Origin: Terriglobales bacterium | GTDB lineage: Bacteria; Acidobacteriota; Terriglobia; Bryobacterales; Bryobacteraceae | DNA: 64,000 bases | Reading direction: 5' to 3' | Assembly: GCA_021372245.1 (NCBI GenBank) | Contig: JAJFUV010000174.1 | Location: forward strand, 1-64,000 | In this document: positions 1-26,300 of the stretch, one piece after another | How positions within the stretch are numbered: the stretch's first letter is position 1 | Layout of the letters: the number at the start of each line of letters is the position of its first letter | The notes under the pieces: model-generated | The model's database searches: none | What the model was told of the DNA's origin: nothing | Seen by the model: the letters and a program-made list of their open reading frames with translations, nothing else | Program-made: the position numbers and the translations under genes

Positions 1-396
1 ATCGTCAACATGTCCAGCATCTCCGCGTTCATCGCCCAGCCCAACCGCTGGACTTACAACGCCGCCAAGGGCGCGGTGAACACGCTGACCAAGTGCATGG
101 CGCTGGACCTGGCGACGTACAACATCCGGGTGAACAGCGTGAGCCCTGGCTGGATCTGGACGCGCGAAGTGGATAAGGCCGCCGGCGGCGACCGCGCGAA
201 GTGGGAGCCCGTCTGGGGCCAGTTTCACATGCTGGAGCGCTGCGGCGAGCCGGTGGAGTGCGCGGGCCCGATCCTGTTTCTGCTGAGCGACGACGCGTCC
301 TTCATCACCGCCGCCGACCTTCCCATAGACGGCGGCTACCAGGGACTGGGCAGCGAAGGCATCGGCAAGGCCAGCAAGTTCGCGGGCTCGGTTTGA
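1..396 (+). CDS. SDR family oxidoreductase, C-terminal part (5' end outside window)
   Basis: The reading frame is open from the first base, so the N terminus with the Rossmann glycine motif lies upstream of the window. What remains is the second half of a classical short-chain dehydrogenase/reductase: a catalytic Ser in MSSIS, the YNAAK form of the YxxxK active-site motif, the N-I-R-V-N-S-V-S-P-G segment after the active site, and the usual C-terminal FLLSDDASFITAADLPIDGGY block. Such enzymes are cytosolic NAD(P)-dependent alcohol or sugar dehydrogenases; the substrate cannot be read from the sequence. The gene runs convergent with the sialidase-like gene, with only three bases between the stop codons. 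The family call is secure, the substrate is unknown. Confidence 0.93.
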   Translation: MVNMSSISAFIAQPNRWTYNAAKGAVNTLTKCMALDLATYNIRVNSVSPGWIWTREVDKAAGGDRAKWEPVWGQFHMLERCGEPVECAGPILFLLSDDASFITAADLPIDGGYQGLGSEGIGKASKFAGSV

Positions 397-399
397 AGG

Positions 400-1533
400 T
401 TAGTGACTGTAGAACCAGTCCAGCTTCACCCTGGCTACTTGGATGCCCAGGAGCGAATGGTAGTTGATCAGCGCGACGTCGTCGGTGAAGGCGATGCCCG
501 CGTAACCATAGTCGCCCTTGGGATCAGATGTCAGGTTGCGGATGTGCTCCCAGGTTTTGCCTTCGTCGCGTGAGATGGCAGCGGCAAGGGGCGCGCGGAC
601 CGCTCCCGACGGCCGCTTGATCTCGCCGATCTGCAGGATGGGCTGCGGCGCCTTGCGGGCCGCGGCGGGCGCGTCCGCGTTGTTGAGCCACACGAGCAGC
701 AGATCGCCGGTCTTTGGGATGCGCTTGATGGTCTGCGGCGCGAGCGGACTGGGCAGGTCCAGGTAGCCGACGTCGGTCCACGTGTCGCCCTGGTCGCTCG
801 AATAAGCGCGGCCCACGTAGCCGTTGCGGTTGCGGAAGACCATGAACAGCCGGCCGTCCTTGAGTTCGACGATACCGGGCTCCTCGGTCGTAGTGCCCAC
901 GTCCACGAAGCCCTTGCCGCGGACCCAGGTGTAGCCGTCGCCGGACCAGTAGCACATCGACACCATGTGCCCCGCCTCGCCGCCGCCAAGTTCGCGGGTC
1001 CACTCCACCGGCACCACGATGCGGCCCGAGGCCAGTTGGATGACGCGGTCCGGGTTCACGGTGTGATAGCCCTCGTGCGGCGTGGCGCACACTGGATCGC
1101 TCCAGGTCTTGCCCTCGTCCGATGAGCGGCGCACATAGAACTTGCCGTCATACAGGCGCAGTTCTTTTCCTTCGTAGCGGTTCAGCACGTTGTAGCCGAA
1201 CAGGATCTCGCCGTTCTTCAAGCGCAGCAGGCTGGGCTGGAGCGTGGCCAGGCGGGCGACGTGCTTCTGCAGGATGAACGCTTCGCCCCACGTGCGGCCA
1301 CGGTCGCGGGAGACGCGCGCCACGACGCCGGACCGCGTGTTGTCGGTCCAGTGCTCCGGGTTGGCGTGCGCGAACAGCACGGAGCCGTCCCGCAGTTCGA
1401 TCATGCTGCCGGTGGAGCCGCGATGCGTGCGGTTGGGGACCATGGGCACCACCAGGAAATCTTCGAGCAACGGACCGGCGCTCCGCGCGGCGCCGCACGC
1501 CGCGCCCGCGATCAGGAAGTTCCGACGGTTCAT
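400..1533 (-). CDS. Secreted sialidase-like Asp-box (BNR) beta-propeller protein
   Basis: A 377-residue protein. The open frame extends far upstream on this strand, but the start chosen is the ATG at 1533, which begins MNRRNFLIAGAACGAARS, a Tat-type twin-arginine leader; the extension runs antisense through the next gene. Four Asp-box motifs of the form S-x-D-x-G-x-T-W are visible (SRDRGRTW, SSDEGKTW, SSDQGDTW, SRDEGKTW), spaced as in a six-bladed sialidase propeller. The family includes exo-alpha-sialidases and other glycan hydrolases as well as non-enzymatic propellers; the arginine triad was not assigned, so activity is uncertain. It sits head to head with the FAD oxidoreductase (54 bases between starts). 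Confidence 0.85.
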   Translation of the reverse strand: MNRRNFLIAGAACGAARSAGPLLEDFLVVPMVPNRTHRGSTGSMIELRDGSVLFAHANPEHWTDNTRSGVVARVSRDRGRTWGEAFILQKHVARLATLQPSLLRLKNGEILFGYNVLNRYEGKELRLYDGKFYVRRSSDEGKTWSDPVCATPHEGYHTVNPDRVIQLASGRIVVPVEWTRELGGGEAGHMVSMCYWSGDGYTWVRGKGFVDVGTTTEEPGIVELKDGRLFMVFRNRNGYVGRAYSSDQGDTWTDVGYLDLPSPLAPQTIKRIPKTGDLLLVWLNNADAPAAARKAPQPILQIGEIKRPSGAVRAPLAAAISRDEGKTWEHIRNLTSDPKGDYGYAGIAFTDDVALINYHSLLGIQVARVKLDWFYSH

Positions 1534-1574
1534 CAGGAGAAACGGTATCACAACAGAGCGCGGTCTGCCGCTCC

Positions 1575-1580
1575 TATAAT
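1575..1580 (+). promoter_or_regulatory. -10 box (TATAAT) 7 bases before the FAD oxidoreductase start
   Basis: A perfect TATAAT lies at 1575-1580 and the ATG at 1588 follows after seven bases. Transcription would start at or next to the start codon, so the mRNA is probably leaderless. No good -35 box is seen. The same spacing occurs at several other genes in this window. Confidence 0.5.
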
Positions 1581-1587
1581 GGCTTCC

Positions 1588-3231
1588 ATGCGTACTCGTA
1601 TCGTTCTTATTCTTCTCGCCGCCGCCGTGGCGGGCCTGGCGCAGCAGTCCTACGACCTGGTGGTGTACGGCGGCACGGCGGGCGGCGTGATGACCGCGGT
1701 GGCCGGCGCGCGGCAGGGCCTGCGCACGGTGCTGATTGAACCGCGCGCGCACGTGGGCGGCATGGCTACCGGCGGCCTTTCCCGCACCGACGTCGGAAGG
1801 CGCGAAGTGATCGGCGGGCTGGCGCTCGAATTCTACATGCGCATCGGCGAGCGCTACGAGATGCACCGCTTCCTGCATGAGATGGGGTGGCAGTACGAAC
1901 CTCGCGTAGGCGAAAGCGTGATGCGCGAGATGCTGAAGAACGCCGGCGTCGACGTCGTCTTCAACCGGCGCCTGCGCGAAAAGACGGGCGTAGTGAAGCA
2001 GGGGAACACCGTCACCGGAATCGTGATGCAGAACGGGGAGACCTACCGGGGGAAGGTCTTCGCCGACTGCACTTACGAAGGCGACCTGATGGCGCAGGCC
2101 AAGGTAACTTACACCTACGGGCGCGAGAGCGTCGCGCAGTACGGCGAGTCGCTGGCGGGCATTCGCGAACGCACGCCGTATCACCAGTTCCAGGTGGACA
2201 TCCCGGCGCGCGACGCGCAGGGCAACCTTCTGCCGGAGATTACGACCGAACCTCGCGGCGTTGCCGGCGCGGCCGACCACCGCATACAGGCGTACAACTT
2301 CCGGCTCATCACCACCAACAATCCCGCTATCCGGCGTCCGTGGCCCAAGCCAGCCAACTACGACGCCAAACGCTACGAACTGCTGGCGCGCATGGTCGTC
2401 GCTATGCAGGCCAAACTCGGACGCGCGCAGATCCTGAATGAGGTGACGCAGTTGGCTGAAATCCCCAACCGAAAGGCAGACTTCAACAACTCCGGCGCCT
2501 TCTCCACCGATTACATCGGGAAAAATTACGACTATCCCGACGGCAGCTACGCCGTGCGCGAGCGCATCTGGCAAGAGCACATCGACTACGTGAAGGGGTA
2601 CTTCTACTTCCTGGCCAACGATCCGCGCGTCCCGGCGGCGCTCCAGCGCGAGGTGCGCCAGTGGGGCCTGGCCAAGGACGAATTCGAGGACACCGACAAC
2701 TGGCCCCACCAGCTTTACATCCGCGAGGCGCGCCGCATGGTGGGTGAGTACGTCCTGGTGCAGAAAGACATGCAGACCGATCTGATGAAGCCCGACGTGA
2801 TCGGCATGGGCAGTTACAACAGCGATTCGCACAACGTGCGGCGCTTCGTGAACGAAAAAGGCTTCGCAGAAAACGAGGGAGATATGCAGGTGGCCGTAAA
2901 GCCGTACCAGATCCCTTACCGAATGCTGCTGCCCAAGCGCGCTGAAGCCGCGAACCTGCTGGTGCCGGTGTGCTTCTCGGCGAGCCACGTGGCCTACTCC
3001 TCGGCCCGCATGGAGCCGCAGTACATGATCCTGGGCCACGCCGCCGGAGTGGCGGCCTCGCTCGCCGTCCGCGCGGCAAAACCCGTGCAGGACATCAGCG
3101 TTTCAGATCTGCAAAAGACACTGAAGACGCAGGGGGCTGTGTTCGAATACGCACCCAACCAGCAGCAGAACGCGCTCGGTATCCTGCACCGTCTCCTGAG
3201 CAAGCCGGGACCGCGCGACATCGACTGGTAG
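1588..3231 (+). CDS. Secreted FAD-dependent oxidoreductase
   Basis: A 547-residue protein. The N terminus MRTRIVLILLAAAVAGLAQQ is a Sec signal peptide, followed directly by a dinucleotide-binding fold (YDLVVYGGTAGGVMTAVAGA...VLIEP, with VGGMATGGLS just after). This is the layout of the FAD-dependent oxidoreductase family (FAD_oxidored, PF12831) common in Planctomycetes and Acidobacteria next to sugar genes; the substrate is unknown. An ATG nine bases upstream (1579) overlaps a TATAAT box, so the ATG at 1588 is preferred. The last codons encode GPRDIDW, and the final 19 bases are repeated at 4985-5003. Probably extracytoplasmic. Confidence 0.85.
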   Translation: MRTRIVLILLAAAVAGLAQQSYDLVVYGGTAGGVMTAVAGARQGLRTVLIEPRAHVGGMATGGLSRTDVGRREVIGGLALEFYMRIGERYEMHRFLHEMGWQYEPRVGESVMREMLKNAGVDVVFNRRLREKTGVVKQGNTVTGIVMQNGETYRGKVFADCTYEGDLMAQAKVTYTYGRESVAQYGESLAGIRERTPYHQFQVDIPARDAQGNLLPEITTEPRGVAGAADHRIQAYNFRLITTNNPAIRRPWPKPANYDAKRYELLARMVVAMQAKLGRAQILNEVTQLAEIPNRKADFNNSGAFSTDYIGKNYDYPDGSYAVRERIWQEHIDYVKGYFYFLANDPRVPAALQREVRQWGLAKDEFEDTDNWPHQLYIREARRMVGEYVLVQKDMQTDLMKPDVIGMGSYNSDSHNVRRFVNEKGFAENEGDMQVAVKPYQIPYRMLLPKRAEAANLLVPVCFSASHVAYSSARMEPQYMILGHAAGVAASLAVRAAKPVQDISVSDLQKTLKTQGAVFEYAPNQQQNALGILHRLLSKPGPRDIDW

Positions 3232-3232
3232 A
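3214..3232 (+). repeat. 19-bp direct repeat, copy 1 (end of FAD oxidoreductase gene)
   Basis: CGCGACATCGACTGGTAGA spans the codons RDIDW, the stop and one further base. An identical copy in the same orientation lies at 4985-5003. The two copies flank about 1.75 kb holding two minus-strand genes of visibly lower GC content. Confidence 0.9.
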
Positions 3233-3240
3233 TGCCGGTG

Positions 3241-3270
3241 CCTAATCACACTTATCGTGAGATAGGTGGA
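3241..3270. terminator. Imperfect hairpin between convergent genes
   Basis: CCTAATCAC and GTGAGATAGG can pair around a short loop, between the convergent ends of the FAD oxidoreductase and the small membrane protein. There is no U run, so a role in termination is only suggested by the position. Confidence 0.3.
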
Positions 3271-3282
3271 GTGGAGACCGCG

Positions 3283-3747
3283 TCAGACACTATCCGCTCT
3301 GGCAGCGCCGGCGACAACGATGTTAGTCGTGCTGCAGGTAGAAGGCGTTGTGGCCCGTCCGGCCAAATTCATCCTCACTTTTGATTGTCCTTCGATCTTG
3401 AGACCGCGATCCGGGTCCGCTTCAAGGATACGAAGTAGAAACTTGGTACGATGACCCTCCGAACCGAGTTCCTGGATGACAACTAGTGCGAGCACGAACA
3501 TCGCTGTGACCGCGAACGTGGCGATGTCAGTCCAACCACTAGCATTAGCTGGCATCCAGATGCCCGCTTGCATCAGGATTTTGAGCCCTTCGTAAATCGC
3601 AATTAGTCCGACAAATCCGGCGATGAATCGCTCCGAGCCGCCCTTGAGTCTTCGAATCAGTCGAATCGCTACTGCGATTGCGAGTAAGCACAAAGTGACA
3701 GAACAGGCAAGGAGCGGATCACGCAAAAGAAGTCTATACAGGGCCAT
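3283..3747 (-). CDS. Hypothetical small membrane protein
   Basis: A 154-residue protein not matched to a known family. Three hydrophobic stretches can be seen: residues about 10-30 (LLACSVTLCLLAIAVAIRLI), 42-62 (FIAGFVGLIAIYEGLKILM) and 70-92 (WTDIATFAVTAMFVLALVVIQEL), then a polar tail. Codon use is less GC-biased than in neighbouring genes. With the PilZ-DnaJ gene it lies inside the block bounded by the 19-bp repeat, which suggests shared acquisition. The ATG at 3747 starts just before the first membrane segment. The 172 bases upstream, to the next gene, hold no convincing signal. Confidence 0.6.
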   Translation of the reverse strand: MALYRLLLRDPLLACSVTLCLLAIAVAIRLIRRLKGGSERFIAGFVGLIAIYEGLKILMQAGIWMPANASGWTDIATFAVTAMFVLALVVIQELGSEGHRTKFLLRILEADPDRGLKIEGQSKVRMNLAGRATTPSTCSTTNIVVAGAARADSV

Positions 3748-3919
3748 TTAAGCGCCTTTCTCATTGACAACCGGCTCACAGGCGGCCAGAAGTCCGACTG
3801 CACCTACGCAGTAGCTTATACTGCCAACTTGTTGTGTGGAATAGCTTTCCAGTACTAATCAAGCCCTAAAAATGACAGTACGGTCTTAGCTTGTCATTCG
3901 GGTGAACACCTGTACAAAT

Positions 3920-4858
3920 CTACATAGAGCCGGTAGCAGGAGACTGCGCTCGACCTGAAAGCCCGACGTTCGCGCCTGGCAGGAGGTGGGGACGGGGCGC
4001 GGAACTCGGTTCGCGCTCAAGAGTCTCAGCGGCATCCACACCGTCGACCGTGATGGAATAGCGCCCGTTGTCGCTGCGGGCGACGTGGCCGCGTTCCTTC
4101 AAGTACCAGAGACTGAATTCGAGGTGTTCTTTAGGACATCCGAGGAGATCTTCCAGCTCGCGGATCGTCATCGTCGGCTGATGCAGGTCGCTTATCCGCT
4201 TGGTATAGAGTAGAGACAAAATGCCGAGGCGCTTGCGGCGTTCACCTTCGGAACCCTGTGTCGTTTGCGCGTTGTTGAAGATCTTCCAACGAGTCGTGCG
4301 GGTCGCCGTGTGGCGGGCGTCGTAGGCAGCACGCTTTTCAGGGTCACTGAGAACCGCATACGCGGTCATCAGTTGATGGAACATGTCCGCATCGCCCGTC
4401 TCCTGGTTGTCAGGATGATAGCGTTGCGCGAGGATGCGGAAGACTCTCTGTACGGTCTCCTGGTCCGCCTTGGCGTTCAACTGCATAATTTCGTAGTGGT
4501 CCGAAAAGTCCTGATCGTCCGCGCTCTGTGCGGTGGCTGTGCCGTCTCCATCCTGCTTTGCGGACGCCGTCTCCAGGCGCGCTCCGGCACGAAAGCCGCC
4601 GCTCTTTTCGGCCGAACAGTACCGGACACGGGCCCGTTTTCCAATCAAGTGTGTGGGAAGCTTTGAGCCACTCCCATCCCGGACCGTGATTAAAGTCTCT
4701 TTAGGTAGCTGCACGGGTGACGCGAAACAGAAGCCCTCATCGCCTTCGTCGATGAGTTTCACCGATGCAGTCCTGAGGGTGGATCGGGCATCGGAGTAAG
4801 TGATGCCGAATGTCACGTCGCCAACAACAGTTCTTCGAGAACTCCGTCTACGCTCCAT
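3920..4858 (-). CDS. PilZ-DnaJ-winged-helix fusion protein
   Basis: A 312-residue protein starting at ATG 4858 (MERRRSSRR); a TTG three codons earlier is less likely. Residues 1 to about 100 look like a PilZ-type beta domain (basic RRxxxR start, then a strand-rich segment ending in GGFRAGARLE). Residues about 120-185 are a J domain with the HPD motif at 148-150 (QRYHPDNQ) and the usual LSDPEKRAAYD end. Residues about 205-285 resemble a winged helix (MTIRELEDLLGCPKEHLEFSLWYLKERGHVARSDNGRYSIT). PilZ domains often bind cyclic di-GMP and J domains stimulate Hsp70 ATPase; combining them with a DNA-binding-like fold is unusual. The classical PilZ DxSxxG motif is not evident, so ligand binding is doubtful. 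Confidence 0.8.
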   Translation of the reverse strand: MERRRSSRRTVVGDVTFGITYSDARSTLRTASVKLIDEGDEGFCFASPVQLPKETLITVRDGSGSKLPTHLIGKRARVRYCSAEKSGGFRAGARLETASAKQDGDGTATAQSADDQDFSDHYEIMQLNAKADQETVQRVFRILAQRYHPDNQETGDADMFHQLMTAYAVLSDPEKRAAYDARHTATRTTRWKIFNNAQTTQGSEGERRKRLGILSLLYTKRISDLHQPTMTIRELEDLLGCPKEHLEFSLWYLKERGHVARSDNGRYSITVDGVDAAETLEREPSSAPRPHLLPGANVGLSGRAQSPATGSM

Positions 4859-4984
4859 GGGAAACAACTCCAGCTTATTGACTATCGACGTAAGCTATAG
4901 AATCTTTAGCAAGGTTCCACTTGCAATTGCTTCGCCGAACACCACTTTCTGAGGCCGGAGCGCCCCCCGTAAACCGCCGGCCCA

Positions 4985-5003
4985 CGCGACATCGACTGGT
5001 AGA
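4985..5003 (+). repeat. 19-bp direct repeat, copy 2, with GPRDIDW-stop relic
   Basis: Identical to 3214-3232. Reading on, bases 4979-5002 encode G-P-R-D-I-D-W-stop, as at the end of the FAD oxidoreductase, but the Gly and Pro codons differ at third positions (GGC CCA here, GGA CCG there). An in-frame stop lies just upstream, so no gene remains. The rest of the 4868-5028 gap holds nothing recognisable. Confidence 0.85.
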
Positions 5004-5028
5004 AAGTGAGAGAGGCCTCAACCGGTCA

Positions 5029-6015
<987 letters not shown>

Positions 6016-6040
6016 GACTTCAATCTAGCGCAGTATCGAA

Positions 6041-7408
6041 TCAGGACAGCGTCCACGGCTTGCGCATTGGGCGGTAAATCATCTTGCGGGCCGCATCGTC
6101 GCCGGTGATGGTTTCTTTCACGGGGTCCCAGTGAATAGTGCGGCCGGTGCGCACGGCGATGTCGCACAGGTGGCTGACCAAGTCGCTGCGCACGGCGCTC
6201 TCGACCAAGCCCACGGGATCTCTCCGCTCGCGCACCGCGCGCACCCAGCTCAACTGGTGCGATTCACTCTGCATCAGGCGCTTCTCGTTCGGTCCGATTT
6301 CGGACGCCGCGAGCGACGCGGGTTCCGTGGCGACCTTCTCGTAAGCGATGGCGACCCAACCTTTCGACCCGATGAAGATGGCCGCGTTGTGCACGAAGTG
6401 CACGCCGGGCCGCGCCAGATCCGGATGCGGCGCATCGGTGTACTTCTTGTAAGTCTCGTTGTCCACCATGTGCAGCACCAGCCCGTTCGAGTAAGTGCAT
6501 TGGACGTCCCACTCATAAACGCAGTTGAACAGGCCACTGGTGGGGAGCTTGCCCTTGCCTTCATACTTCACCGGCATGGTGAGCCCGGCGTTGTCCGCCC
6601 ACCACTGCACCTGGTCGAGCGGATGCGCGGCCCATCCGGCGATGAATCCGATGCAGTAGTCGTAAATGTGGAAGATGCCGTTGCGCTGGCCGCTGACCAG
6701 GCAGCGGTCGTGGCAGAAGGGAGCCTCGAGCGCGGGACCCAGCCACAGGTCGTAGTCGAAACCCTTGGGCACGGGGAGCACAGGCGTGGGCGAGCCGCCG
6801 ATTTCGGAACACGGCGCCACCACCCAGATCTTGCGCACCTCGCCGATGCGCCCGTTCAACACAAGTTCGACGGCGTGTCGCGCTTCGGCCGTGGAGCGCC
6901 GCTCGGCGCCGTATTGGAAGACGCGCCGGCGCGCACGCACGGCCTTGCGGGCGGCCAGGTCCTGCTCGATGGAAACGCCCAGCGGTTTCTCGGTGTGCAT
7001 GTCCTTGCCCGCCTTGGCGGCCGCGATGGTGATGGGCACGTGCCAGTGGTCCGGCGTGGCGATGTGCACGGCGTCGATGTCTTTGCGGCGCAGCACGTCG
7101 CGGAAATCGGCGTAAGCCTGAATGCCCTGGTAGACACCGCTGCGCTTCTGCTCGCCGTAGATCTTCTCGAAGACAGCCTTGGCGTTCAGCCGGCGGTCCT
7201 CGCGCGGGTCGCACAGGGCCACGAATTCGCACTCGGTGGACTTCGTGTAGAGGCGGCCTTCGCCGACGCCGCGCCCGCCCGAACCGATCAGCGCCAGCGT
7301 GACGCGGTCGCTGGGCGGCGTGGCGCCGCGGCCGAGCGCGCGAGCCGGGACAACCAGCGGAGCAACGGCGGCGCCGGTCAATACCTGGCGTCGGGTAAGT
7401 GTGCGCAT
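6041..7408 (-). CDS. Gfo/Idh/MocA family oxidoreductase with twin-arginine leader
   Basis: A 455-residue protein. Residues 1-28 (MRTLTRRQVLTGAAVAPLVVPARA) form a Tat signal, as in many secreted Gfo/Idh/MocA enzymes of this phylum. The NAD(P)-binding motif GSGGRG lies at 42-47 and the family EKP motif at 140-142. The long C-terminal domain (about 180-440) is of the kind seen in bacterial oxidoreductases with Tat leaders. A strong ribosome site AAGGAGG (7414-7420) precedes the ATG. The gene is the first of a pair with the aldo/keto reductase. The reaction is probably sugar or sugar-acid dehydrogenation, possibly periplasmic. Confidence 0.9.
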   Translation of the reverse strand: MRTLTRRQVLTGAAVAPLVVPARALGRGATPPSDRVTLALIGSGGRGVGEGRLYTKSTECEFVALCDPREDRRLNAKAVFEKIYGEQKRSGVYQGIQAYADFRDVLRRKDIDAVHIATPDHWHVPITIAAAKAGKDMHTEKPLGVSIEQDLAARKAVRARRRVFQYGAERRSTAEARHAVELVLNGRIGEVRKIWVVAPCSEIGGSPTPVLPVPKGFDYDLWLGPALEAPFCHDRCLVSGQRNGIFHIYDYCIGFIAGWAAHPLDQVQWWADNAGLTMPVKYEGKGKLPTSGLFNCVYEWDVQCTYSNGLVLHMVDNETYKKYTDAPHPDLARPGVHFVHNAAIFIGSKGWVAIAYEKVATEPASLAASEIGPNEKRLMQSESHQLSWVRAVRERRDPVGLVESAVRSDLVSHLCDIAVRTGRTIHWDPVKETITGDDAARKMIYRPMRKPWTLS

Positions 7409-7434
7409 GAAAGCCTCCTTCTGAGTAATGACAT

Positions 7435-8082
7435 CTATCGCATGACGACCTTATGCACCGCACTGGCGAGTTTCTTGAACTCCAGGCGGGAAACCGAGTT
7501 GGGATCGTACTCCATCACGGTGAGGCCACTCATCACCGCTTCGGCCACCACGATCCGCTGGCCGATCGGGGGCAGCACTTTCCGTCCCATCTCCTCCAGA
7601 GATGAGGAGAGGCCGCGTCCCAGGTTGGTATGCAGGAGCACCTTGGAGGGGACGAAGCGGATGCGCGGCCGCTTGGAGCGCCGTTGGGCACGCGCCTTGA
7701 GGGCCAGCGACAAGGGTTCCTTCAGGGAGAAAAGATCCAGCGGAGAAGGGCCGCACGGCAGGAGAACAAGGTCTGCCACCAGCGCGGCCTGGAAGGCGGT
7801 ATCGGGCGCCCCCGGAGGCGTGTCGATGAGAACGAGGTTGCCGTCCTTCTCCGCCGCGCGAGCCTTGGCCCGTAGCGAATCGGCGTGGTCGTTCTTAATC
7901 TTCTCGACGCAGCGCGAGAGCATCCCCTTACCTTGGGACGCCCAGGCTGAGAGGCTGTGCTGAGGGTCCGCATCCAGCGCGGTGACGCTCAAACCCATGT
8001 CGGCGAACTCGGCAGCAAGATTCCCCACGATCGTCGACTTCCCAACGCCGCCCTTCCGCCCCAGGACCGCGATGATCGCCAT
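7435..8082 (-). CDS. ParA-family ATPase
   Basis: A 215-residue, single-domain P-loop ATPase of the MinD/ParA/Soj class. It starts MAIIAVLGRKGGVGKST, with the deviant Walker A motif KGGVGKS at 10-16 and Walker A' LIDTPPG near residue 75. The longer open frame upstream was rejected because the family always begins a few residues before the P loop. No parB or centromere-like gene is adjacent, so this is an orphan; such proteins position plasmids, chemoreceptors or other cargo. A TATAGT box seven bases before the ATG suggests a leaderless message. It lies 26 bases upstream of the Gfo/Idh/MocA gene on the same strand. Confidence 0.9.
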   Translation of the reverse strand: MAIIAVLGRKGGVGKSTIVGNLAAEFADMGLSVTALDADPQHSLSAWASQGKGMLSRCVEKIKNDHADSLRAKARAAEKDGNLVLIDTPPGAPDTAFQAALVADLVLLPCGPSPLDLFSLKEPLSLALKARAQRRSKRPRIRFVPSKVLLHTNLGRGLSSSLEEMGRKVLPPIGQRIVVAEAVMSGLTVMEYDPNSVSRLEFKKLASAVHKVVMR

Positions 8083-8187
8083 AGACAGTACTATAGTTGA
8101 AATCCGGCGGGAGGATACTGCGCCGCCGGCCGAGCGAGTCTGAATTCGGCGGAATGAGATGCTTCCGTCGCACGGGATGGAGGCCTC

Positions 8188-8216
8188 TTGACACGGTAGA
8201 GCGAGAGGATTAGCTT
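8188..8216 (+). promoter_or_regulatory. Predicted promoter for the secreted two-domain protein
   Basis: TTGACA at 8188-8193 and TAGCTT at 8211-8216 with a 17-base spacer. It faces the gene starting at 8380 and would give a 5' UTR of about 155 bases. The 297-base gap (8083-8379) otherwise holds only the parA start region and a self-complementary CCTCGCGAGG at 8225-8234. Confidence 0.45.
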
Positions 8217-8379
8217 CATAATTGCCTCGCGAGGAACACGAGAACCACATATCTCACCGCACACTTAGACGCGGGGCAGATGCACTCCCTCCCACTTGAA
8301 GGGCCTCTACAGGAGAGATTCCAAACCTTCTGCAACCCAGGTGTAAACAGGCCAGGAAACCCATATGGAGCTACACACT

Positions 8380-9228
8380 ATGAATGCGCTTCGATTGTTC
8401 GGGCTCGGGACGGTGCTCGCGGTTTCAGCGGCGGCCCAACCCTACGTTCAGGTTACAACCGTGAAAGTGAAATCCGGTCTCATGCCGGCGTTCACGGAGG
8501 TCATGCAAAAGTTCATCCAGGCGAACCAGAAACACAAAGGCAGCACATGGATCGCGGGCATTTCGGTGTTCGGGGAGTGGAACAAAGTCAAGTTTTTCGC
8601 CGTGCGCGATAACCTGGCCGCGGTGGAAGAGGCGAACAAGGCTTTCGACGCCGCGCTGGTGGCGGCGCTGGGTAGGGAGGGATACGGCAAACTCACGTCT
8701 GCGTTAGGTGGAATGGTGGCCGATTCGTGGCGCAGTGACCTGTCTCGAATGCGTCCGAAGTTGGGGTACCTCATGCCTGACGACAAAGCCGGGTTGCTGA
8801 AGATGTTTGGCCAGTCGCGCTGGCTGATGTTGATGGTGGTCCAGGTGAGGCCGCCTGCCCAGATGGAATACCTTGAGGGATGGAGCGAGTACAGGAAAGT
8901 GCTTGAGAGGTCGGGCTCTCGGTCGCCGATCGGAGTCTCAACGGCGCTGACCGGTCCCGCGGTTGTTTCTTTTACCAGTTGGGCCAAGATGCTGGGCGAT
9001 TGGGACATCAAGTCCCCGATGAAGCCGCCGGCCAAGGAAGAACTGGAGAAACTCCGGGATCTGTCCCGCAAGGGGATGCCGCTGGTCCAAGGTTCCGAAG
9101 TGGAAATCTACCGGCTGGCACCGTCCCTGAGCAACCCGGCCCAGGAAATCATCGAGGCGGATCCGGCTTTCTGGACACCGAAGCCCCCGGCGCCGCCCAA
9201 GCCGAAACCGCCGGCCGCGAAGAAGTGA
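8380..9228 (+). CDS. Secreted hypothetical protein with duplicated alpha/beta fold
   Basis: A 282-residue protein starting MNALRLFGLGTVLAVSAAAQ, a Sec signal peptide; an ATG 15 bases upstream would only extend the leader. The mature part seems to contain two related halves, each opening with a strand-helix-strand pattern like dimeric alpha/beta-barrel (antibiotic-monooxygenase-type) domains: PYVQVTTVKVKSGLMPAFTEV at residue 20 on, and LMLMVVQVRPPAQMEYLEGWS near residue 150. The C terminus is a proline-lysine-rich tail (PKPPAPPKPKPPAAKK) that could contact the cell wall or membrane. No catalytic motif was recognised; the function is unknown. Confidence 0.75.
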   Translation: MNALRLFGLGTVLAVSAAAQPYVQVTTVKVKSGLMPAFTEVMQKFIQANQKHKGSTWIAGISVFGEWNKVKFFAVRDNLAAVEEANKAFDAALVAALGREGYGKLTSALGGMVADSWRSDLSRMRPKLGYLMPDDKAGLLKMFGQSRWLMLMVVQVRPPAQMEYLEGWSEYRKVLERSGSRSPIGVSTALTGPAVVSFTSWAKMLGDWDIKSPMKPPAKEELEKLRDLSRKGMPLVQGSEVEIYRLAPSLSNPAQEIIEADPAFWTPKPPAPPKPKPPAAKK

Positions 9229-9251
9229 CACGGAAGCCCCCGGAGGACAGG

Positions 9252-9282
9252 CCGCCGGATGTTGGGCTCTGACACCCGGCGG
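9252..9282. terminator. Hairpin between convergent genes
   Basis: CCGCCGG (9252-9258) and CCGGCGG (9276-9282) are perfect 7-bp arms in the gap between two convergent genes. There is no U run; this may be a Rho-type end or simply a stable stem. Confidence 0.3.
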
Positions 9283-9332
9283 GGATCGAAAAGCGTCGAT
9301 GATAGCCAGACGCGTGGATCCGCCCGCCCCCC

Positions 9333-11711
9333 TTACCAAACCCGCCCCGTCTGTATCTTCGGCAGCGGGGAGAACACCTTCTCGAAGGGTACCGGGTTCA
9401 GGTACGGCTTTCCGTGGTGGAAGTTCACGATGTTCTCCATGAACTTCTCCACGATGTCGAAGCCGTACACCAGGAAGATGTTGATGCGGTATAGGACGCC
9501 GAGGTCGGACGGATCGTCAATCACCTCGGCGAACTTCGTTCCCATGGCCCTTGAGCCGTGGCTCGCGCCGCGGAACATTTTCATGCTACGGTCCAGCCTT
9601 TCCATGAACTCCGCGTTGCGGTCGGCGTTGCGCGCTTTGAAGGCCTCGTCGAATTCCATGTACGCTTCGCGGATCCGGATCAGTCCCTCCAAGTGCATGG
9701 CGTAAGCTTCGGTCTTGTTCCTCAAGTAGGCCAGTTCGGTTCGGCCGCCCTCGGAGACCGCGCCTTGCGCCCGCGCGAAAATTTCCGCCGCCTGGCGCAG
9801 CAATTCCATGCTGCGCCGGTAGTACAGGATCTTGGCGCGGCTACTCTCCAGAAATCCCGGCCACCCTGAGAACGTCGGGCCGTCGTGCGGGTTGCCCTGT
9901 TCCGAGTAGCTCTTGACGATGCCGATCTCGGAAATCGGACCACAGCAACCGAAGTTGCCCTGCTGCGTCCAGCCCATCTCCTCTTCGTTCTTCTCCAGGA
10001 TCTGGTAGGCGCGGAAGATCTCCGGAGCCGCCTGCTCGCCGAAGATACGCTTCACGTAATCGCGGTAGAACTCCTCGGGCGTCATCTTCGGCTTCCAGGC
10101 CGCGTCGGCGAGGAACTTCTCGTTGTGCTCCTGGCCGCGCGCGCGGTTCACCTGCATGGCGTGGCCCGCGACGCCGTGCTCCAGCGCGCCGTCGTACAGG
10201 CGGTCCTTGTAATACATGGTGACGTTGAACTGCATTCCGAGCATGCCGCTGTCGTCGTCCGAGCGCGATATGAGCGTCCGCTCGCGCTCGCCCATCCCGC
10301 CGAATTGATAGAGAGGCACTCCCATGGGCGTCCAGATGCCGCGGCTCACCATGTCTGTGAACGGCACGTCCTTGGGGAAAATACGGTCGATGATCGGATA
10401 GACGAAGCTCCGCCCGAATGCGCCGACGCCCACGTTCGGTTTCGGATTCATGCGGTCGCGCGCCTCGATTGCTTTCTTCATCAGGTAGATGGCCGCGTTG
10501 TTGCTGTCGACAACGCGGTCGGCGACGCGCGCGTATCCGGTGTAATGCTTCCAGTGGCGGAGTTGCTCGGCGTAGTCCTTGGGGCGCTGTTCGAGCAGAT
10601 ACTCCTTGCTCTTCTCGTCCTCGCAAACCGGATAGAGTTCCGGGAACCACAGGAAATAACCTTCGGCCCCCGGATAAGTGCTCACCAAGCTCTTCAGGCG
10701 GTTCTCGTTGATCTCGTCCACTACCGGGTCCACCGGACAGACGTAGACGCCGCCCATGATGGGATGGAAGGGCAGATCGCCTGTACGCGCCCGTGCGTGA
10801 CGCGCCAGGTTCGCGGGCAGGCTCACCGGGTCGATTGCCAGCCAAGTTTTGATCTTCTTCGTCTTGGCGTAGGCAATCACCTGGCGCAGCATGTTCTGCG
10901 CGACGGCGAAGGCCTGCTCCGGCGATTCGACATTCTGAAACTCGGGTGGGGCCAGGCGCGGCTGGGTGAAGTGCTCGCGGCCCACCACCATGTCGCGCGC
11001 CAGATGCGAGCCGAAGCCCGTGGCCCACAGCAGGTACCCGCTCTCCTTGGTCGAAACGTCGCCCAGGAAATTCTTCTCACCCTTGTAGTCGTAAGTGAGG
11101 AACGGGGCGTAGGGGAACCAGAAAACCTGCAGGTAGTTCATGCGCATGCGCGCCATGCGGTCGATGAACTTCTTCCAATAATCGAGCGACCAGATGGTCT
11201 GGTTCGGATAGCAGAAATCGACGTGCACTCCGCGACGCTGGTAGGACGGTTCGACGCGCTCGTCGAGCGCTGGCATCCGCACGTCGATCTGCCTTTTCGG
11301 CACGATGTCCTTGGTGAGCAGGAAGACGAAGCCGAGCCGCTCGAGCAGATCGTAAGCGGCGTACATGGTGCCGGCCTCGTCTTTGCCGCTCACGACCAGC
11401 GCGGGCTGCCCGTCGCGCGTCGTTCTCTTCAGAACGTAACCGCCCTCCTTAAGGCCCGTGGCCGCTGTCTTACTGCCCACCGACACCAACGGTTTGCCTT
11501 TCGGCGCCGTCGCGACGATCTCCAGCCGCGCACCGGAAAGCGTCGCAATGTATTGCTGCAGTTCCTTGGCGACGAAGCCGTTGAACTCTCCGCCGCCCGG
11601 CACGATCACGGCCTCTGGCTGCCCGTTCCGGACCAGAAATACTTCTGCCGCCCGAGCGAGTCCAGCCGGCAGTAAAGTGATCAAAATCGCAACGCCGATC
11701 AGTACCTTCAT
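9333..11711 (-). CDS. Secreted DUF4838 / alpha-glucuronidase-like protein
   Basis: A 792-residue protein with a Sec signal peptide (MKVLIGVAILITLLPAGLARA). Residues about 25-140 resemble the N-terminal beta/alpha domain of GH67 alpha-glucuronidases and GH20-like enzymes (GGGEFNGFVAKELQQYIATLSG; later GTMYAAYDLLERLGF). The central region (about 170-480) looks like a TIM barrel (RGVHVDFCYPNQ, YLQVFWFPYAPF, YFLWFPELYP), in line with the DUF4838 family. The C-terminal 150 residues are helical. It probably acts on uronic-acid-containing polysaccharides outside the cytoplasm; glucuronate isomerase encoded at 18 kb would fit, though it is not adjacent. An AGGTGG ribosome site precedes the ATG. Exact activity is not proven by the sequence. 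Confidence 0.75.
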   Translation of the reverse strand: MKVLIGVAILITLLPAGLARAAEVFLVRNGQPEAVIVPGGGEFNGFVAKELQQYIATLSGARLEIVATAPKGKPLVSVGSKTAATGLKEGGYVLKRTTRDGQPALVVSGKDEAGTMYAAYDLLERLGFVFLLTKDIVPKRQIDVRMPALDERVEPSYQRRGVHVDFCYPNQTIWSLDYWKKFIDRMARMRMNYLQVFWFPYAPFLTYDYKGEKNFLGDVSTKESGYLLWATGFGSHLARDMVVGREHFTQPRLAPPEFQNVESPEQAFAVAQNMLRQVIAYAKTKKIKTWLAIDPVSLPANLARHARARTGDLPFHPIMGGVYVCPVDPVVDEINENRLKSLVSTYPGAEGYFLWFPELYPVCEDEKSKEYLLEQRPKDYAEQLRHWKHYTGYARVADRVVDSNNAAIYLMKKAIEARDRMNPKPNVGVGAFGRSFVYPIIDRIFPKDVPFTDMVSRGIWTPMGVPLYQFGGMGERERTLISRSDDDSGMLGMQFNVTMYYKDRLYDGALEHGVAGHAMQVNRARGQEHNEKFLADAAWKPKMTPEEFYRDYVKRIFGEQAAPEIFRAYQILEKNEEEMGWTQQGNFGCCGPISEIGIVKSYSEQGNPHDGPTFSGWPGFLESSRAKILYYRRSMELLRQAAEIFARAQGAVSEGGRTELAYLRNKTEAYAMHLEGLIRIREAYMEFDEAFKARNADRNAEFMERLDRSMKMFRGASHGSRAMGTKFAEVIDDPSDLGVLYRINIFLVYGFDIVEKFMENIVNFHHGKPYLNPVPFEKVFSPLPKIQTGRVW

Positions 11712-11876
11712 TCAGGCCACCTCGTCTATCCGAGTACAGTATCTTGCCAGTGGGTCCGGCGTCCACCTCACTTATTGGAGGGCGGGTTTCAAGGCGTAGG
11801 CAGATAGTCCATGCCAGCCAACACCCCGCCCTCCCGGCCTTTGGTACAATTCCAGACGCGGAGGTCCACTCGTTCC

Positions 11877-12116
11877 ATGTACCGCTTCAGACCAAGGGGC
11901 ATCGGGTGCTTCGGGTGCCTGCCTTTCGGCGGATTGCTTATCGGGGTGCTGCCGCTGATCGCGATCGGCTTCCTGATTTACTGGCTGGTGAACCGCCAGA
12001 GTCCCGCCGCGCCTCCGCCGGCCAAGCCCGCCGGAGGCCTCTTCTGCTCGCATTGCGGGAAGCCCATGCAGGCGGGCGAGAAGTTTTGCGCCAACTGTGG
12101 AAGTAGCGTGGGCTGA
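11877..12116 (+). CDS. Small membrane protein with C-terminal zinc ribbon
   Basis: A 79-residue protein. The start at ATG 11877 is preceded by a GGAGG ribosome site; the longer frame adds 22 unlikely residues. A glycine-rich membrane segment at about 15-38 (GGLLIGVLPLIAIGFLIYWLV) is followed by a proline-alanine linker and a zinc ribbon with two C-x2-C pairs (FCSHCGKPMQAGEKFCANCGS). Such proteins are common and mostly uncharacterised. It lies 24 bases upstream of tRNA-Val. Confidence 0.8.
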   Translation: MYRFRPRGIGCFGCLPFGGLLIGVLPLIAIGFLIYWLVNRQSPAAPPPAKPAGGLFCSHCGKPMQAGEKFCANCGSSVG

Positions 12117-23380: not shown

Positions 23381-26300
23381 CTAAGGCTCCACGGCGATGG
23401 TGGTAACCTTCATCCCCTGCTCGAGGCTGAACGTGTTCCGGTACTGGAGCAACACGATCACTGCATTGGGAGATACCGGCACAAAGAGCTTGGGAATCCG
23501 CACGTTGATCTGCCAGACACCGACCAAGCCGGGCGCCAGGCCCGAGTACTCAATGGCGTTCGCCGCGACAGGTATTCCGTCCAGGGACACCTGCAAGGTC
23601 CCCTCCGTTGGGACCAATCCACTGGAAAGTGTCCCGTCCGGCGGAGAGTTGGGGACCTTACCCGGACCAGTACCAAACAACTGTATCACCTGGTCTTTCT
23701 TGGCCCGGTTCGTCGGAGAATTGCGGGAATTGTCCTGGTTCAACGCGGCCACTTGTCCGCCACCCGATCCGTCATTCGTGAACAGGGCGGGAGAGGAATT
23801 CCGGACAGTAATCGTCTGCGCACCCAGGATCTGGTCTTTGGAAGGATTTACCACCTGCACTTCGACAGTGCCCGAATCGGCAATGTTAGAAGGCATTTGA
23901 AAATTGATCTGGCCGGGAGAGACGAAAAACAGGGGTGCGGGACTGTCATTTACCAACACCTGGATGTCGGCGAGCGTGGTGGGCAACGGCAGTGGGTTGG
24001 CCAGCTCGTTGAAGCTCTTGATCACGGACCCATAAGTGTTGCCCGCCGGCCAGATCGACCCAATCATGCCCGCCGTTGCCCGCGTACTGTAATTGGCTGC
24101 ATTCGTGACAGTGAGGGCTGGAAAAAAGAAGTCCACGCGGTTGGTGGCCTCCGCCGCCAGCAGGTTGTCGAATCCATCCATGGTAACTGCCGTGGAAGTG
24201 GCGGCGTACACGTAGCCATTGCTCGCGTAGCCCCCCGTGTACAGGTTGTCATAGCTGGGCCAGCGGCGTAGTTGCGTCGTATTGCCTGGATCCGCGATCC
24301 AGATCGCCCCTGTCGTTCGGCTCACAAAAACGCCTTGCGGCTGGCTCAAGCCCTTGATGGATTCGGCAGCCGAACCACCGAACGTAGGCTGTTGCCAGAC
24401 AGCGCCGAAGATCGAGACCCGGTAATTGCCCCTATCGCACACGTACAGGCGGTCGCCCGTGTCGAACGCGATGCCGCGCGGCGAATTGAACTTATTGTCC
24501 GCCGGCCCGGAACCAGTACTAGCCGCGTCGATCTGGCCGTAGACTTTCGCGGCGGACTGCCCGTTCTGGAATCCATTGGTGGGGTCGTTTTGGAACAGGA
24601 GCACGCGGTTGTGCGCCATATCGGAAACCGCCAGGCTCCCATCATTGGAGAACGCCACGCCAAAGGGCCGGTACAAAGTGCGCATATTGGCCACGTTCCC
24701 CAATTGACTTGTAAAACTTGTCTGGCCAAGCACCATATTGGCGGCCTGCTCCTGCTTCTGGAAGGGAGTCGGGAAGCGCAACACCCGGCCATTGCCGTAA
24801 TCGGCCACCCACAGATTTCCGCCGGAATCCACGGCTAAGCCCATGGGGCTGTTCAGCCCGAACTGGTTCGGCTTGGTGGAATCGTCCGTAGGATAGTTGA
24901 TCAACGACCTTTGGAAGCGGTAGTCGTCGTTGCCCTGGCCGATCACAAGGTCGGCTTTCTGGCCGGGCCGCACTTTACGGGCATCCTTGAACCCCAGGAT
25001 GCGGTTGTTCCCCGTGTCGGCGACGTAGAGCCGCGGCGGGTCGGACTTGGCGTCCACCGCAATCCCGCCACCGGAGTTGAAGCGGAACTCGCGGCCTTCG
25101 ATGAGATTCACTGTATCGAACTGAAAGCCGTCCTGCCCCAGTACGCGCTGGGCTGCGAAACTGGGCAGATCGCTCGAATTGCTCGGATCGCTAAAGACGA
25201 GCACACGATGGTTGTCCGAATCGGCGACGAACAGCATGCCTCCGGCGTATGCGGCCGCGATTGGTCCGGCCAGAGTGAAAGCGTTCGGCTCGGTAAGGCC
25301 GCGGTTAGGGGTAGTAGAGTTGAAGTCCACTTGACCGATTACACCGCTGGCAGCGGGCGACATCACCGTTGGCGTCTCCGCCGGCCAGGAATCGAAATTC
25401 GAGAACCGCAGGATGCGGCTATTGTACGTGTCGATGACGAAGGGCAGATACCCGATGGTGAACACACCTTCGGGCGGGTAGTAGGAATTGTTCGCCACCG
25501 CGCCAAGGCTGGTGTTGCTGGGCACATACGAGTCGGGGACAACGCCCATGACACGGGAGGCGGATTTTCCGGTGGAGTACGGCGGGGTATACACGAGGAC
25601 GCGGTTCAACGCGTCGCACACGAACAGGCGCCCCGCCTGGTCCAGCGCCAGGCCCGACGGATTCGCGAGGCCACCTTTGATCCTCCGGTCGCCGCCCGTG
25701 ACCTGGCTGTTCTTGGCATCAAACGAGACCTGTCCCAAAACCATGTCCGCCGCCGGCCCATTCGACCCGTAATCCAGCAAGGCGGTGGGGTAGCGGAGTA
25801 CGCGGTGGTTGCCGGGATCGGAGGCATACAGATTGCCTTGGCTATCGAACGCCAGGCCGCTACGGTACACATAGCTGCTGCCTTGGTTGAGCGCAAGAGT
25901 CTTGGCCGACGGCAGCGTCAGGCCCTGGTTGGTAGAGTTGGCGCTGAATGTGTTCTGGCCAATCACCATGTCGGGCAAAATGGAATCGGCCGGCTGCTCG
26001 AACGGCTTGGGGAAACGCAGGATGCGGTTGTTGCCGGAATCCGCCACGTAAAGGTTCCCTTTGGCGTCCACCGCGATCCCGGTCGGGGAAGTCATGCCCG
26101 TACTTACACTGGTACTCGGCCCCAGCGCGCTGGTAGCATACTTGCTTGCCTGCCCGATGACGAGATCCGCGAACGCACCGTTGGCGAAAGTGGCCGCGTT
26201 ACGCCAAGCCAGGATCCGGTTGTTGCCGGTATCGGCGACATAGAGGATGGGAGGCGTCACACTCGTATCCGCCGCAATGCCCTGCGGAGAGTTGAATTCA

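Follow-up and report, generated by a model that had tools for sequence, protein, structure and literature searches.

A recent insertion of 1.75 kb, located at the 3′ end of a gene, is the most likely reading of the window analysed here, a stretch of 64,000 nucleotides; events of this kind are known and ordinary. We hold with moderate confidence that a single, fairly recent event placed the segment at the 3′ end of an FAD-dependent oxidoreductase (FAD) gene, duplicating 19 bp and leaving an attL/attR layout. That an insertion took place, as well as its age, its direction and its recombinase, is what we infer from the following features.

1588-3231, plus strand: FAD-dependent oxidoreductase gene, the host gene (PF12831, E 9e-108); start ATG at 1588 or 1579, ends RDIDW-TAG
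3214-3232, plus strand: 19-bp direct repeat, copy 1, at the native 3′ end of the FAD gene
3233-4984, no strand: putative inserted block, 1752 bp, with low GC and atypical codon use, delimited by the repeat, the GC and codon profiles and segmentation
3283-3747, minus strand: small membrane protein, 154 aa, homologues in 4 of 60 relatives
3920-4867, minus strand: predicted PilZ-DnaJ-winged-helix protein (DnaJ 3e-17; PilZ from its family, fold from a structure model); likely start ATG near 4858
4985-5003, plus strand: 19-bp direct repeat, copy 2, at the right edge of the block
5029-6015, minus strand: aldo/keto reductase gene (PF00248, 1.2e-80), right flank, convergent with the FAD gene

The repeat and the composition of the block

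The original prediction was that the end of the FAD gene, RDIDW with the stop and one base, recurs at 4985-5003. This proved exact over 19 bp, and CGCGACATCGACTGGTAGA is found both at 3214-3232 and at 4985-5003. Copy 1 consists of the last five FAD codons, the stop and one further base. The Gly-Pro codons expected ahead of both copies, with other third bases at the second, are indeed there as GGA CCG (copy 1) and GGC CCA (copy 2). They agree in 4 of 6 bases, for which the chance is about 5% (binomial, 0.27 per base), and an in-frame TAA lies a few codons ahead of copy 2.

In the whole assembly (6,358,668 bases, 368 contigs) the exact 19-mer occurs at these 2 sites, and 2 other sites match with 3 mismatches. 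Since a reversed control pattern gave 7 matches at up to 3 mismatches in the same assembly, only the exact pair is meaningful. The repeat is thus rare in the genome, as the prediction needed. Whether spacings are limited to 3 kb or to 10 kb, it is the longest exact direct repeat of the window, and 60 simulated order-2 Markov sequences of 64 kb gave maxima of 13-17 bp at spacings up to 3 kb, against the 19 bp observed. The repeat is therefore longer than chance gives. The 19-mer core had no match in viral contigs.

The DNA between the two copies had been described as a lower-GC two-gene block with more than 60% GC outside, and this description held up. The GC content is 0.558 in the block compared with 0.638 in the FAD gene and 0.644 in the aldo/keto reductase gene. 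Only one of 1245 sliding windows of 1752 bp was as GC-poor, and that one overlaps the block, which makes it the GC minimum of the whole window. In the intergenic stretch 3841-3900 we counted 24 G+C in 60 bases (40%), close to the 38% given before. Codon use, for which a profile had been proposed as a check, is atypical in both block genes: GC3 is 0.55 in the membrane protein gene and 0.66 in the PilZ-DnaJ gene, whereas 46 crude gene calls of 120 aa or more average 0.78 (sd 0.05); at least one of these calls is spurious (400-3039, minus strand) and took the place of the true FAD gene. When the first 9.4 kb were divided at two change points by mono-, di- and trinucleotides, blind to the repeats, the edges fell at 3090-3240 and 4950.

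To put the coincidence of repeat and composition in proportion, we scanned 25 stretches of the host genome that total 489,788 bases and include the window, together with 118 related loci of 1,286,940 bases, some of which may overlap and several of which contain tandem FAD genes. Every other exact repeat of at least 17 bp at a spacing of 0.5-6 kb encloses DNA with a GC content within 0.046 of its flanks. The dip between the 19-bp copies is -0.087, and the next largest is -0.046.

These results bear on the possibility that the block is old and native, with the repeat arising by chance or by local duplication and the low GC due to the membrane protein gene and the spacers. Matches to the PilZ-DnaJ family are indeed characteristic of the host family, several being present per genome. 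However, the repeat exceeds those of all simulations, both genes are low in GC and atypical in codon use, and the repeats sit near the composition edges, so we regard a native block as unlikely.

Other repeats were seen as well. In the host genome, large repeats, nearly identical and up to 115 bp in size, recur at spacings of 1776, 3360 and 5136 bases (G000:C349; L239 4835-10286). At 24593-26245 of the window there are seven imperfect 42-nt repeats, about 200-400 bases apart, within a long minus-strand frame.

The FAD gene and the second copy of its 3′ end

Relatives of the FAD protein reach 76% identity, and their tails align with it through the Trp. The nine closest named relatives are 68-76% identical; the tail reads FNWE or FNWEY in six of them and differs in two, and one is cut short near a contig end. 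In this alignment, made by eye, the Trp coincides with that of the window's tail. Since the FNWE/FNWEY tails of the relatives align with copy 1, copy 1 is shown to be the FAD gene's own tail and the native copy. The reading frame of the FAD gene is left intact by the insert. When the block and one repeat are removed, the FAD and reductase stops come to lie about 25 bp apart, as a compact convergent pair.

Copy 2 had been interpreted as the tail of a diverged homologous gene. It would then stem from the second of two tandem FAD genes, with the two-gene block in place of that gene's body. FAD genes often occur in tandem in the family, at a spacing of about 1.69-1.74 kb that is near the 1.77 kb (1771) seen here, and Gly-Pro codons precede both copies. 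A relic requires FAD homology upstream of the shared tail, but the similarity ahead of copy 2 ends at the last seven codons. Apart from these codons, the best protein-level match between block and FAD had an E of 0.086, and at the DNA level the tail alone was significant. We compared ten neighbouring FAD pairs from six loci of relatives and this genome, some genes being incomplete at a contig edge. They are 41-76% identical gene-wide, yet nine of the ten share just 5-8 of their last 18 bases (14/18 in the other one). A relic would need the reverse, 18/18 at the tail and nothing before it. It would also take two events, the second of which ended within 19 bp of the stop. This part of the original prediction is therefore not supported, and we consider a relic improbable.

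Tandem arrays of two or more FAD genes were a recurrent sight among the loci, with tails that diverge and bodies that stay similar (L095 1619-6594; L036; L039 6130-9457; L100; L102). The last gene of such arrays often ends in FNWEY or FNWE.

The loci of relatives were also compared for synteny. Adjacency of the FAD and reductase genes was not found among the loci fetched for 60 FAD relatives, 150 reductase relatives and 80 named FAD genes; in the last set, all from outside the genus, the aldo/keto reductase flanked the FAD gene in 0 of 80. The relatives' loci compared, again all from outside the genus, gave neither an empty site nor a second filled site. At 34 other PilZ-DnaJ loci no comparable bracketing repeats were found, the longest being 16 bp compared with 17 bp in 350 control positions.

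The two genes of the block

The block had been said to encode a membrane protein and a PilZ-DnaJ fusion. The DnaJ part of the latter was found directly (Pfam PF00226, 3e-17). The PilZ part has no Pfam match in the window protein itself and rests on its family, where 17 of 24 aligned members match PF07238 at E ≤0.1. All 24 members have the J domain, with an invariant HPD motif (H148 P149 D150). The predicted structure (312 residues) shows a beta domain, the J helices and a winged-helix-like C-terminus. With a mean pLDDT of 84.6 and a pTM of 0.50, the individual domains can be trusted but not their placement relative to each other. J-domain and PilZ structures were among the Foldseek matches of the model with E of 0.0004-0.01; whole-chain ranks 1 and 2 were ignored, with an rmsd near 18-20. 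Judged from the domains only, the protein would act as a co-chaperone through its J domain, be linked to c-di-GMP through PilZ, and bind DNA or protein with its winged helix. Its N-terminal part resembles PilZ proteins of the YcgR/BcsA type (5y6g, 3kyf, 4p00) and its middle the J domains of DnaJ proteins. Unlike proteins of either kind, it would have both domains fused, plus the winged-helix-like C-terminus. A full-text literature search returned no paper joining the names PilZ and DnaJ.

Of the 91 host-family genomes, the window's own included, 61 have strong matches to this protein family (E <1e-20), as against 6 of 60 others. Several matches, at scattered positions, are seen in many host-family genomes (loci L171-L205). 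As most occurrences fall within the host's own family, the block need not have come from outside the lineage. The closest relatives of the window's protein share 47-49% identity with it along most of the length; among 396 sampled genomes of the phylum, only its own genome and one relative from the same family passed E 1e-55. The PilZ-DnaJ loci have few neighbours in common, shared only by small groups of 2-5 of the 35 loci compared, with no gene picked at the match in two loci and a wrong one in at least four.

The membrane protein has weak homologues in 4 of 60 genomes, with 19-43% identity over about residues 4-111. In two relatives its module forms the N-terminus of longer proteins (L192 5221 onward, L193 5066 onward), which by eye are PAS-like signalling proteins. 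The membrane protein of the window may be a cut-down sensor, but stand-alone homologues of similar length also exist.

Proposed mechanism of insertion and comparison with known elements

In the proposed insertion, the FAD and aldo/keto reductase genes would originally have lain tail to tail, with about 25 bp between their stops. A self-contained 1.75-kb segment would then have entered the FAD 3′ end, duplicating the last 18 bp of the gene and one more base; the FAD frame would have been kept and the displaced 3′ end would now form the right edge of the block. Site-specific recombination between the 19-bp core in the chromosome and that in a small circle would generate attL and attR. The repeated target flanks the block on both sides, as attL/attR elements require, and site-specific integration leaves just such a layout, an intact gene 3′ end and, beyond the insert, a displaced copy of it. 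That a coding and a non-coding copy agree at 19/19 bases points to a recent event. The cargo is less similar to its best relatives (47-49% for PilZ-DnaJ and 43% for the membrane protein) than the flanking genes are to theirs (75-76% for FAD and 71% for the reductase).

No integrase or transposase was recognised in 3233-4984, and the block hardly has room for one. This speaks against the attachment-site reading, as do the lack of further exact core sites in the genome and of any in viral contigs, the failure to find an empty or second filled site among the relatives' loci, the family-bound distribution of the cargo protein, and the 34 other PilZ-DnaJ loci with no comparable repeat. The recombinase would have acted in trans or since been lost. 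The host genome has 15 matches to tyrosine-recombinase domains, and these enzymes could act on the block in trans. A bolder version has little probability in our view. In it, a minimal integrative unit of about 1.77 kb that lacks an integrase would be mobilised in trans and target FAD-gene 3′ ends, the block being one of its copies. If it were true, such a unit would spread c-di-GMP-linked chaperone regulators among Bryobacteraceae.

Hairpins at the edges of the block were no better than those of shuffled sequences, a consensus search found no promoter-like sites within it, and no RNA family was found in 1-12000. The tRNA genes are far from the block. Against plasmid, phage and viral collections it showed J-domain similarity only.

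The repeat could instead be a target-site duplication, the product of a non-autonomous transposon or of DNA capture at a staggered break, with no site-specific recombination involved. This would fit a direct repeat that exactly flanks one copy of atypical DNA and an insert that starts with TG and finishes with CA. Nevertheless, two marks of transposon membership were absent: among the 25 longest of 32 inverted-repeat pairs none joins both ends, and a search of the block DNA against its own genome gave a single match with no further copies. A 19-bp target-site duplication is long for most transposons, and this also speaks against one. As for end-joining capture, the host genome had no Ku protein match; the same search was positive in only 1 of 14 control genomes, so Ku is often absent. 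Transposition or end-joining capture is therefore less likely, and the attachment-site mechanism fits the block best.

The locus adds a clean example, from a poorly studied phylum, of an apparent insertion where a protein-coding gene has its 3′ end. It also draws attention to the PilZ-DnaJ-winged-helix family, with an unusual three-part signalling protein as cargo.

Among known systems, transposon target-site duplications share with the window a short exact repeat around one insert, but here the repeat is 19 bp, the insert is a single copy and it has neither clear terminal inverted repeats nor a transposase. The tandem FAD arrays of Bryobacteraceae-like genomes have a similar spacing of repeated segments; unlike in those arrays, the DNA between the window's repeats has no FAD similarity. 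For Candidatus Solibacter usitatus, a related large genome, a published study describes ancient acquisition and many small duplications (PMC3174227). The integrated elements of Thaumarchaeota are a precedent for the layout: of 68 mapped elements, 14 are located in 3′ regions of protein-coding genes, sites of a kind that the authors confirmed against genomes without the insertion (PMC6563490). The block differs from the elements described there in its size of only 1.75 kb, in carrying no recognised integrase, and in belonging to another domain of life. Like them, it combines a repeat at a gene 3′ end, an intact host gene and a distinct insert.
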